From a virus, in the IMG/VR virus record IMGVR_UViG_3300022919_000086, positions 1 through 20,253 of that record: 20,253 nt of DNA; one strand, given 5' to 3'. Shown piece by piece: positions 16,043-18,073 of the stretch. A program made the position numbers and the translations under genes. Positions within the stretch are counted from its first letter, which is position 1. Each line of letters starts with the position of its first letter. Under the pieces are notes generated by a model that saw nothing but the letters and a program-made list of their open reading frames with translations, was not told the DNA's origin and ran no database searches.

Positions 16043-16067
16043 GTGGTAAAAGTAATAAATTTATTTG

Positions 16068-16075
16068 TATGTTTG
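16068..16075 (+). promoter_or_regulatory. -7 box of a possible small RNA
   Basis: TATGTTTG matches TAnnTTTG. It sits in the divergent gap between the 900-aa gene and the SPFH gene. The sequence around it (TTGTATGTTTGTAGT) is nearly repeated at the second promoter 117 bases on (TTGTATGTTTGTGGT). Transcription from here would run into the terminator at 16129-16161. Confidence 0.5.
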
Positions 16076-16161
16076 TAGTCTATTAAATGGGTTTGATAGG
16101 TCATAATTTTGGTTCGGTTTTTTAGGGATACAGATATTTTTTAAATGTCTGTATTTTTTTT
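16076..16161 (+). ncRNA. Candidate small RNA of about 80 nt
   Basis: The stretch between the -7 box at 16068-16075 and the T-tract ending at 16161 holds no open frame of useful length, only a terminator hairpin at its 3' end. A promoter and terminator enclosing a non-coding stretch define a possible short transcript starting near 16082. It could instead be a leftover or attenuated leader for the SPFH gene, since a second promoter follows at once. Confidence 0.35.
16129..16161 (+). terminator. Intrinsic terminator upstream of the SPFH promoter
   Basis: TACAGATATTT (16129-16139) and AAATGTCTGTA (16143-16153) pair over 11 bp, counting one G-U wobble, with a 3-nt loop, followed by eight T (16154-16161). 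It would stop transcription from the first promoter before the second one at 16185-16192. Confidence 0.75.
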
Positions 16162-16184
16162 GTGAAATAATGAAGTATAAGTTG

Positions 16185-16192
16185 TATGTTTG
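16185..16192 (+). promoter_or_regulatory. Bacteroidota-type -7 box of the SPFH transcript
   Basis: TATGTTTG matches TAnnTTTG. A TTTTG ends at 16162, 22 nt before it, near the place of a -33 element. Transcription would start near 16199, within an 11-bp dyad (ACGGT, T, ACCGT at 16197-16207) that could be an operator. Confidence 0.6.
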
Positions 16193-16197
16193 TGGTA

Positions 16198-16284
16198 CGG
16201 TTACCGTCTCACTATACGTAACATCAAAAAATTATACGAGCCCGTATATGAAGTAGAAGTGAGACGCTACCGATTATACGGGCT
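16198..16284 (+). ncRNA. Structured 5' leader with interleaved repeats (predicted pseudoknot or switch), copy 1
   Basis: Four segments in the order A-B-A'-B'. A is CGTCTCAC (16205-16212) and A' is GTGAGACG (16259-16266), a perfect 8-bp pair extended by CGGT (16198-16201) with ACCG (16269-16272). B is AGCCCGTATA (16239-16248) and B' is TATACGGGCT (16275-16284), a perfect 10-bp pair. The crossing order predicts an H-type pseudoknot or two exclusive folds. B can also fold locally: TATACG (16233-16238), AGCC, CGTATA (16243-16248) is a perfect tetraloop hairpin, and TATACG occurs again at 16213-16218. B' is followed by a T-rich run, and the ATG is at 16309. No known family is recognised. Confidence 0.7.
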
Positions 16285-16308
16285 TTGTTATTTAAAACTT
16301 TATTTATT

Positions 16309-17277
16309 ATGGTAACAATTATTTTATTAGTCATTTTCTTGATTATCTGGGGAGCTTTTGTAGCTCAAAAACGTTTCAAAATTTTATCTACTCAGGCTAT
16401 TGCCGATGCGAATGTTAGGGGCGGGTATCGTGAGGAAACCAAATTCAACTATAAACCCATCGTTTTACTTATCGTTGGCTTGTTATTTATTTTCCTGCAA
16501 CCGTATTCAATGAAAAAAATCGAAGCCGGATATAAAGGTTTGCGTGTAAACCTTGTGGGCGATAATCGCGGCGCATCGAATATAGAGGAAGTTTCTGGGC
16601 TGATACTTTATAATTCCTATACCGAGGAATTGCAGCAAATACCTTTAGACCAGCATCATATTGATTACGGTAAAAGCGTTATAGTTGCTAAAGGCGGTTT
16701 TGCGTGTGATATTAGCCCGGCATTTAACTATTCTGTAAAATCCCCTATGGCTGCCGATATGTTTACTAACCTGCGTTCTACTTATAAGACAGGAGGGCTT
16801 AAAGCCGTTGAACAGGGGTGGCTAAAAAATGCTATTTTAGGCGCAGTCAACGATGTGGCTAATACTTATCCAATTGAGGATATATTCAATAACCGTTCTT
16901 TATTTGAGGCAGCTATTATTGTTGAAGCTAACAAGCGTGTTGGTAAATGGTTCGAAATAAGCCAGCTTAAAACAAATATACAGCCCCCACGAAGCATTGC
17001 TGAAAGTATAGAAGCTAAAGCAAAAGCCACGCAGGACGCTATAACGAGCGCAGCACAAGCAAGTGCAGCAAGAGCAGATAAAGAACGCATCGTTGCGCTG
17101 GCACAAGCTGATAGCGCTAAAACAGTAATAAAAGCTCTTGCAGAAGCGAAGGCTGTTCAGTTGAAGGAGCAGAAACTAACGCCGCTTTATATTGAGTACA
17201 TGAAAATACAAAAATGGGATGGAGTACTCCCAACTACAACTACTGGCGGTGCAGGTACTTTCGTAAACATTAAATAA
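16309..17277 (+). CDS. SPFH-domain (prohibitin-like) membrane protein
   Basis: A 322-aa protein from the ATG at 16309. A TTG at 16285 would add eight residues but would lie in the leader just after B'. Two hydrophobic segments (residues 2-18 and 50-65) anchor it, followed by a prohibitin/SPFH domain from about 68 to 235 (KKIEAGYKGLRVNLVGDNRG; FNYSVKSPMAADMFTNL). An Ala/Lys/Glu-rich coiled coil follows at about 234-292 (SIEAKAKATQDAITSAAQAS), and a GTFVNIK end. SPFH proteins form large membrane rings; the bacterial members HflK/HflC control FtsH protease. In a phage it might shield or redirect a host membrane protease, or act in superinfection exclusion, which is inference. It stands alone behind its own promoter and structured leader. 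Confidence 0.85.
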   Translation: MVTIILLVIFLIIWGAFVAQKRFKILSTQAIADANVRGGYREETKFNYKPIVLLIVGLLFIFLQPYSMKKIEAGYKGLRVNLVGDNRGASNIEEVSGLILYNSYTEELQQIPLDQHHIDYGKSVIVAKGGFACDISPAFNYSVKSPMAADMFTNLRSTYKTGGLKAVEQGWLKNAILGAVNDVANTYPIEDIFNNRSLFEAAIIVEANKRVGKWFEISQLKTNIQPPRSIAESIEAKAKATQDAITSAAQASAARADKERIVALAQADSAKTVIKALAEAKAVQLKEQKLTPLYIEYMKIQKWDGVLPTTTTGGAGTFVNIK

Positions 17278-17314
17278 TTTTTCACAAAAACCATTTATAA
17301 TTAAAATAAATAAT

Positions 17315-17322
17315 TATATTTG
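17315..17322 (+). promoter_or_regulatory. Bacteroidota-type -7 box of the small membrane protein operon
   Basis: TATATTTG matches TAnnTTTG fully, 38 nt after the SPFH stop. Transcription would begin near 17329, right at the structured leader. No clear -33 motif was seen. Confidence 0.6.
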
Positions 17323-17331
17323 CAATGCAGA

Positions 17332-17412
17332 CCGCTACCTGCGCAAACTCATAAGTCTTGAATGACTAACAGAGAAACCTCATAGAATGCTGTAGCGGCT
17401 TTTATGGGGTTT
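17332..17412 (+). ncRNA. Structured 5' leader with interleaved repeats (predicted pseudoknot or switch), copy 2
   Basis: The same A-B-A'-B' order as the leader at 16198-16284. A is CCGCTAC (17332-17338) and A' is GTAGCGG (17392-17398), a perfect 7-bp pair. B is AAACCTCATA (17375-17384) and B' is TATGGGGTTT (17403-17412), a 10-bp pair with one U-G wobble. It begins 10 nt after the -7 box, and B' ends 20 nt before the ATG at 17433 (24 nt in copy 1). The segments differ in sequence from copy 1, so the arrangement, not the sequence, is shared. Small local repeats (GCAG/CTGC at 17327-17342 and AGTC/GACT at 17354-17367) may add side hairpins. A T-rich stretch follows A'. Confidence 0.65.
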
Positions 17413-17432
17413 TCTTTTTATATTTTATTATT

Positions 17433-17669
17433 ATGAAAAAACTAAAATACACAATGATTATAAACATGATTATATACTGGTCTGTTTATATTTTAAAGTC
17501 TTTTATTCAATGGGATTTACAAAACCCATTTCAATGGATTTTAGATTTGCCTTATAATGAAGATTTAAGAACATTAGTCTTAGTCGCTTTATTTTTCGAT
17601 ATAATAGCAATTAGGTTTATGGTAGTCGAAATATCTTTTCAGCATTATTTAAACAAACCGAAATCATGA
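17433..17669 (+). CDS. Small membrane protein (78 aa)
   Basis: A 78-aa protein with two membrane helices, at about residues 8-24 (MIINMIIYWSVYILKSF) and 48-66 (LVLVALFFDIIAIRFMVVE), joined by an aromatic, polar loop (QWDLQNPFQWILDLPYNEDL). It is the first gene behind the second structured leader. Its stop overlaps the cupin start (ATGA at 17666-17669). Small size and topology fit a holin-like, immunity or superinfection-exclusion protein, but I recognise no family. Sharing a leader type with the SPFH gene hints that the two membrane proteins are produced under the same condition. Confidence 0.6.
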   Translation: MKKLKYTMIINMIIYWSVYILKSFIQWDLQNPFQWILDLPYNEDLRTLVLVALFFDIIAIRFMVVEISFQHYLNKPKS

Positions 17670-18073
17670 ACCTAACCACCCACCGCGAAACGCTATCCCC
17701 GGCATTCAATAAATTACATATCGAGGGGTTGCCTTTCAATGCTTCATTTAATCATTTTACTGAACCTGATACAGGCGACCCTCATGACCATCCGTTTAAT
17801 TTCGTAACCCATATAATTAAAGGCAGTTATATTGAAAGGATATATGATACTCGTGGTAATTTTTATACTATAACACGCACTTTAGGTTCGTTTCATTATG
17901 TATCTGCCGATACTATACATAAAATAATCAAAATACCCGAGGGCGAATGCTATACCTTAATGATACCTGAACTTAAAATACGTGAGCCGCGCTTTTGGAG
18001 GTTCGAAAACGGTAAGGCATACAGCAGGCAATGGAATGAGGAAGAATTTAAACTATATGAGATTAATAAATAG
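17666..18073 (+). CDS. Cupin-fold protein
   Basis: A 135-aa protein with the layout of a small cupin. The first metal-binding motif is PHDHPFNFVTHIIKGSYIE (residues 39-57), giving His40, His42 and Glu57; the second supplies His85 in SADTIHKI. A PEGECYTLMIPE segment and an aromatic end (REPRFWRFENGKAYSRQW) follow. These residues would hold one metal ion inside a beta barrel. Cupins of this size in phages are mostly of unknown substrate; dioxygenase, isomerase or sugar-binding roles are all possible. It is coupled to the small membrane gene by an ATGA overlap. It ends in TAG. Confidence 0.75.
   Translation: MNLTTHRETLSPAFNKLHIEGLPFNASFNHFTEPDTGDPHDHPFNFVTHIIKGSYIERIYDTRGNFYTITRTLGSFHYVSADTIHKIIKIPEGECYTLMIPELKIREPRFWRFENGKAYSRQWNEEEFKLYEINK

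Follow-up and report, generated by a model that had tools for sequence, protein, structure and literature searches.

Kissing-loop leader RNAs behind early-type promoters of Bacteroidota phages: a candidate family of promoter-proximal attenuators

Phage gene control in Bacteroidota is, to our knowledge, poorly known. Elsewhere, pseudoknotted 5' leaders with the segment order A-B-A'-B' occur among the H-type pseudoknot riboswitches such as preQ1-I. In phage HK022 the put RNA (putL/putR) is a cis-acting leader of two hairpins just behind the early promoters that is present in more than one copy per phage (PMC9378689). In the pT181-type antisense attenuators, a leader with a 5' hairpin has its intrinsic terminator controlled through loop-loop kissing, and changes in the loop give orthogonal variants (PMC4878617).

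We analyzed a 20,253-base stretch of DNA, hereafter called the window, that constitutes phage record IMGVR_UViG_3300022919_000086. Two leaders in the window (copy 1 and copy 2; Table 1) had been described as sharing, in order, a TAnnTTTG promoter, segments A, B, A' and B', a T-rich stretch and an ATG, and all of these parts are present in both sequences. The stem lengths reported in this preliminary description hold for copy 1 (8 and 10 bp) and for A-A' of copy 2 (7 bp), but stem B of copy 2 has 13 bp including G-U rather than 10. Likewise the A-B-A'-B' segments exist, but stem C of both copies and stem D of copy 1 had been missed, and with these helices the topology becomes one of two kissing hairpins. 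When we searched for a 7-bp A enclosed in a hairpin loop, with its partner enclosed by a stem of 8 bp or more, the observed score was reached in 0 of 3,000 dinucleotide shuffles of each leader; the window leaders are not due to chance.

Table 1. Parts of the two leaders in the window and their first genes.
Feature	Position	Strand	Sequence, remarks and basis
Copy 1 promoter, -7 element TAnnTTTG	16185-16192	+	TATGTTTG; sequence
Copy 1 hairpin 1	16200-16222	+	Loop carries A; stem C covariation, double changes at 5/5 pairs
Copy 1 stem C	16200-16204/16218-16222	+	GTTAC/GTAAC; closes loop A
Copy 1 A/A'	16205-16212/16259-16266	+	CGTCTCAC/GTGAGACG; 8 bp
Copy 1 hairpin 2	16239-16284	+	Covariance-model match and covariation
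Copy 1 B/B'	16239-16248/16275-16284	+	AGCCCGTATA/TATACGGGCT; 10 bp
Copy 1 hairpin 2 internal loop			TGAA/CGAT; between stems B and D
Copy 1 stem D	16253-16256/16267-16270	+	GTAG/CTAC; closes loop A'
Copy 1 hairpin 2 loop		+	AAGTGAGACG; contains A' GTGAGACG (16259-16266)
Copy 1 T-rich tract, weak	16284-16293	+	TTTGTTATTT; 3' of hairpin 2; sequence
Copy 1 first gene	16309-17277	+	ATG 16309; SPFH/Band 7 protein, 322 aa; Pfam PF01145, E 7e-15
Copy 2 promoter, -7 element TAnnTTTG	17315-17322	+	TATATTTG; sequence
Copy 2 hairpin 1	17326-17343	+	Stem TGCAG/CTGCG, 8-nt loop ACCGCTAC; sequence, shuffles, L414 copy
Copy 2 A/A'	17332-17338/17392-17398	+	CCGCTAC/GTAGCGG; 7 bp
Copy 2 additional small linker hairpin	17354-17367	+	AGTC-TTGAAT-GACT; MFE fold
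Copy 2 hairpin 2, A' in loop	17375-17412	+	MFE fold z -3.46; pattern scans
Copy 2 B/B'	17375-17387/17400-17412	+	AAACCTCATAGAA/TTTTATGGGGTTT; 13 bp including G-U
Copy 2 U-tract	17410-17419	+	TTTTCTTTTT; 3' of hairpin 2; sequence
Copy 2 first gene	17433-17669	+	ATG 17433; 78-aa protein without database relatives

Compared to the described systems, these kissing leaders resemble HK022 put in placing two stem-loops immediately 3' of a promoter of early type and in having several copies per phage. However, neither kissing loops nor a terminal U-tract has been described for put, whereas the kissing leaders have both. The put copies also share sequence, while one 53-kb phage (G016) has four kissing leaders with four different kissing pairs. 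Furthermore, put acts on enterobacterial RNA polymerase, and the kissing leaders are unrelated to it in sequence and structure (no Rfam match). With the pT181-type attenuators they have in common a 5' hairpin, a terminator-shaped hairpin and loop-loop kissing, but in pT181 the leader kisses an antisense RNA made separately, whereas the loops paired here belong to a single molecule. The pT181 terminator also competes with an antiterminator, whereas the kissing helix described here leaves the terminator stem free. Riboswitches of the preQ1-I type are alike in being pseudoknotted 5' leaders of A-B-A'-B' order; in contrast to them, the kissing leaders pair two closed hairpin loops, precede unrelated first genes and have no ligand core by Rfam models.

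In a relative (L002) the SPFH protein is 94% identical and A of the leader reads CTTCTCAC/GTGAGAAG, a compensated change relative to copy 1; it was comparison with this leader that brought the two further helices to light. IMG/VR was scanned with two patterns, TTCTCACN{30,60}GAAGTGAGAA and GTCTCACN{38,52}GAAGTGAGAC, each of which gave at least 120 matches. The matches listed for both have the TAnnTTTG promoter, two hairpins, a T-tract and an ATG in common, and a spacing of 58-60 nt predominates among those listed for the second. Matches to the CCGCTAC pattern with a 79-nt spacing are unrelated and lack the promoter, L414 alone being genuine. A covariance model (R1) was seeded with ten family members aligned by MAFFT, and the family test combined an R1 match with complementary A/A' loops and a TAnnTTTG promoter. 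Copy 1 is a family member by this test, with an R1 match at 16197-16292 (66.9 bits, E 7e-10 in 610 kb). Copy 2 is not (11.2 bits, E 2.3 on the window), so that the two copies, first presented as one sequence family, have only their architecture in common.

The covariance-model search that had been suggested for these leaders yielded a large family. The copy-1 family comprises no fewer than 125 different members, drawn from uncultured phages and from one phage in culture, Flavobacterium phage FL-1 (R1 57.9 bits); nearly all loci are uncultured contigs, many of them fragmentary, and the counts are lower bounds. The same model detects 19 of 20 phage records. A variant leader (40 bits, with a different kissing pair, GCATCCTAC/GTAGGATGC) occurs in a second cultured phage, Tenacibaculum phage JQ, ahead of a small operon with a putative helicase gene. 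FL-1 was located by protein similarity, JQ through the CATCTCAA variant. A BLASTN search of cultured phages with the consensus leader gave no match, and a partial match in a Prevotella Lak phage showed neither a hairpin-2 partner nor a U-tract. SPFH orthologues were ruled out as a source of leaders since FL-1, L004 and L005 have no kissing leader 5' of the orthologous gene.

The aligned leaders indicate a loop-loop kissing complex: the 5' hairpin carries A in its loop, the second hairpin likewise carries A', and one or two extra helices are present. In the family, hairpin 1 has a stem C of ~5 bp and a loop of ~14 nt with A at its start; an A-rich linker of ~15 nt follows, and hairpin 2 consists of stem B (9-12 bp), stem D (4-6 bp) and a 10-nt loop with A' at its end. 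The hairpin 2 internal loop is mostly UGAA/GGAU, with the sides reversed in some members, and we take it to form consecutive sheared G-A pairs. Together with this internal loop, the unpaired sequence kept in the copy-1 family comprises the loop AUUAUA and the linker AAAGRAAUUA.

A conserved RNA fold with compensatory changes, as proposed from the window copies, is borne out by very strong covariation in the copy-1 family. Across 85 distinct leaders, pairing holds in 96.6% of cells, 682 cells show double changes, the covariation score is 0.736 compared to 0.173 when shuffled, and pairing falls to 37-47% when partners are slid. Because the search pattern fixed the A core, this core could not vary among the 85. 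The one kissing pair that the pattern left free is C-G in 67 and G-C in 59 leaders with mismatches in 0 of 126, leaders found by other means (L280, L294 and L048) carry compensated changes in the A core, and a third A sequence (CATCTCAA/TTGAGATG) was seen again in several more phages. When 12 leaders are aligned in a single register, pairing of the kissing helix is complete (100%) and 6 of its 8 pairs show double changes; covariance-model alignments are biased toward their own structure, and both this test and the seed used MAFFT alignments. G-U pairs are abundant, indicating an RNA-level element. A simple H-type pseudoknot was dropped as a model after stems C and D were found to covary. We also rejected a taut linker between the hairpins, as the linker shortens when hairpin 2 lengthens, the reverse of the prediction, although this correlation is negative partly because the stem boundary is ambiguous.

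A promoter-anchored scan of phage loci for kissing hairpins with a T-tail, using no fixed sequence, returned 129 leaders compared to 3 in shuffled sequence. The TCTCAC core is absent from 30 of the 129; a few of these 30 are probably chance, 27 have an ORF start within 60 nt, 22 different kissing sequences occur among them, and many have loops of just 7-8 nt as in copy 2. Copy 2 belongs to this wider set of the same architecture and different kissing sequences. Within one phage, cognate loop pairing is predicted at -8.6 to -11.7 kcal/mol and non-cognate pairing is never better than -5.5, a difference indicating that the leaders should work independently. Each leader in a phage has a kissing code of its own, which would let it act in cis free of cross-talk with the others.

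Comparisons between phages show how freely these parts are exchanged. In L414/L447, a close relative of the window phage (900-aa protein 96% identical), ~160 nt at the copy-1 site, including the promoter, are nearly identical to the window, and behind this shared promoter L414 has a wholly different leader and a different first gene. The alternative leader, ACGG[ACAGCGAC]CCGT ... ATAC[TGTCGCTG]GTAT, again has kissing loops, so the architecture is kept in homologous leaders even where the leader sequence is exchanged. L223 compared to window copy 1 is a similar case. Conversely, L414:4252-4369 is the copy 2 leader with one base different, and its 78-aa first gene is replaced by an unrelated 87-aa gene; near-identical leaders also stand ahead of unrelated genes in L002/L011 and in L019/L042. 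By these comparisons, the architecture goes with the promoter rather than with the gene, and the first gene, even the entire leader sequence, can be exchanged with the architecture unchanged.

Other units of related appearance were observed. Just 5' of copy 1, window positions 16067-16165 hold a second short unit: it consists of a TATGTTTG promoter, what may be an ORF of 12 codons (MGLIGHNFGSVF) and a terminator of simple type (TACAGA/TCTGTA followed by T8); it is nearly identical in L414 and is possibly a leader-peptide or small-RNA unit. At 2256-2340, between convergent genes, a promoter-like CTATATTTA is followed by hairpin AAACCAGTT/AACTGGTT and T8, a geneless promoter-terminator unit and candidate small RNA. 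The window further encodes an SSB-like DUF3127 protein (685-1176) and a protein resembling a cysteine-dioxygenase-like family (17666-18073; PHROG 4786). In Riemerella phage vB_RanS_CRP5 (L255:2990-3190) a different, longer A-B-A'-B' leader lies behind TATATTTG, with pairs TTAATCCAAGTG/CACTTGGATTAA and AAATCGTCAGA/TCTGACGATTT, a T6 end and a gene next to an antirepressor.

In the copy-1 family, TAnnTTTG is upstream in 107 of 125 members compared to 3% of random windows, and hairpin 1 usually begins 4-7 nt 3' of it. At least 3 of the 4 basal hairpin-2 pairs are GC in 109 of 125, T occupies positions 1-5 after the stem in 98, 96, 100, 93 and 86%, and an ATG follows hairpin 2 in 123 of 123 cases (median 23 nt), within 60 nt in 122 of 123. 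Judged by this position, the leaders are very likely cis-regulatory. The first genes fall into 45 unrelated families. The control of membrane-protein genes suggested by the two window genes was therefore dropped as a coincidental link, and for the same reason the first gene is unlikely to be under feedback or metabolite control. Replication-type first genes suggest that the promoter is an early one. The upstream gene is co-directional in 109 of the 118 cases with a called neighbour and typically ends tens of bases from the leader, so hairpin 2 would also block upstream read-through.

Behind wider-set leaders, 9 of 10 tested genes are HNH homing endonucleases, mostly with NUMOD4; the ten were partly picked for similar starts, and the true HNH share is lower, ~1/3 to 1/2 by eye. 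L257, L259, L277, L288 and others have HNH/NUMOD4 or GIY-YIG homing endonuclease genes with their own promoter and kissing leader, as if gene, promoter and leader had moved as a single cassette. The window HNH/NUMOD4 endonuclease gene (142-681) has no kissing leader, and a GIY-YIG gene of FL-1 is preceded by a terminator-like hairpin leader (L003:10460-10574) whose loops are not complementary. At L240:10725-10757 the Rfam DUF805b RNA (RF02914), a different, short cis-element of 35 nt, lies immediately 3' of a kissing leader and ahead of that leader's gene; similar-looking inserts are seen in L050, L119 and L142.

Comparison of the leaders, which would open many of the messages of Bacteroidota phages, thus places hairpin 1 at the start of the RNA and hairpin 2 at the leader end, with the loops paired over 7-9 bp. 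Hairpin 2 has the shape of an intrinsic terminator, with a GC-rich base and a U-tract directly after it, and this signature, together with the position between promoter and ATG, makes an attenuator the most economical reading. The leaders are modular RNAs that stand after an early-type promoter and ahead of the first gene of a transcription unit. From the structure that the comparison establishes we infer, with about even confidence, that hairpin 2 would be a conditional terminator set by the kissing contact. In a promoter-proximal attenuator of this kind, the kissing contact could form before the base of hairpin 2 leaves RNA polymerase and would set the amount of polymerase passing into the operon; the leader is probably a small RNA-only gate on the amount of message made. 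The FL-1 operon behind the leader has 0 simple + strand terminators (6.4 expected for both strands), leaving the leader hairpin as the obvious control target. Counting against an attenuator, the U-tract is short or interrupted in some members including window copy 1, and the tight ATG distance would fit a role in translation or mRNA protection as well. A mutually exclusive antiterminator/terminator pairing is absent: the kissing helix, the sole conserved pairing found, does not overlap the terminator stem.

Processive antitermination like that of HK022 put RNA or Bacillus EAR, in which the nascent fold stays on RNA polymerase and distant terminators are ignored, would account for two hairpins right behind early-type promoters, several per phage and independent of the first gene; put itself is two stem-loops of ~70 nt just behind PL (PMC9378689). 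However, the kissing leader ends in a conserved terminator shape that put does not have, and its kissing sequences differ wholly between copies while put copies have common sequence. This divergence and the FL-1 operon, which offers no simple + strand terminators to bypass (Rho sites are still possible), weaken the put-like reading, and we regard it as unlikely. A 5' stability or translation element, whose compact 5' end would shield the mRNA from nucleases and keep the A/U-rich start region open, fits the position of hairpin 1 at the expected transcript start, the indifference to the first gene and the median ATG distance, ~23 nt being close to the upstream edge of the ribosome footprint. It leaves the GC base and U-tract signature unexplained, gives no reason for a kissing contact over a plain hairpin, and is in our view decidedly unlikely.

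The unpaired sequence conserved in the copy-1 family might point to a riboswitch-like aptamer binding a ligand or protein, or to a free, trans-acting small RNA released when transcription terminates at the U-tract. Yet that sequence is missing from other leaders, the start codon is always close behind, and the unrelated first genes leave no metabolite or feedback logic, so that we consider this improbable. Inverted repeats could also function in DNA or be chance repeats, but the abundant G-U pairs, the constant promoter to U-tract to ATG orientation, the excess of covariation over controls and the 129 real versus 3 shuffled scan matches make such an explanation scarcely credible.

No Rfam 15 family matched the window, canonical members or variants at the gathering score, in agreement with the initial view that no known RNA family fits; tRNAs in L257 served as positive control and the best sub-threshold matches were noise. 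The exact pattern had 8 scattered matches across bacterial and archaeal genomes totalling 257 Gb, none with promoter and stems, and R1 with stricter filters matched none of 395 genomes from the phylum to which a Bacteroidales genome (G001) belongs. As no members were found in the bacterial genomes searched, the element looks restricted to phages. The literature searched held nothing like the kissing leaders, and by this search and Rfam 15 the two-hairpin kissing leader is previously undescribed, the thousands of unnamed candidate motifs of PMC8040213 lying outside the comparison.

More tentatively, and at somewhat less than even confidence, the leaders may represent a novel RNA-only phage transcription control, in which intramolecular kissing joins a 5'-terminal hairpin to the loop of a terminator close to the promoter, loop codes that exchange freely keep the leaders in one phage independent, and promoter and leader form a portable cassette that HNH homing-endonuclease genes carry as well. 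These results add to the Bacteroidota phages a widespread family of leader RNAs, very likely cis-acting, whose structure is well supported. Selection acts on their architecture while the loop code exchanges freely, a natural counterpart to the engineered orthogonal attenuators. The two cultured phages, FL-1 and JQ, permit direct testing, and if the leaders do gate transcription, they would provide compact parts for Bacteroidota genetics.
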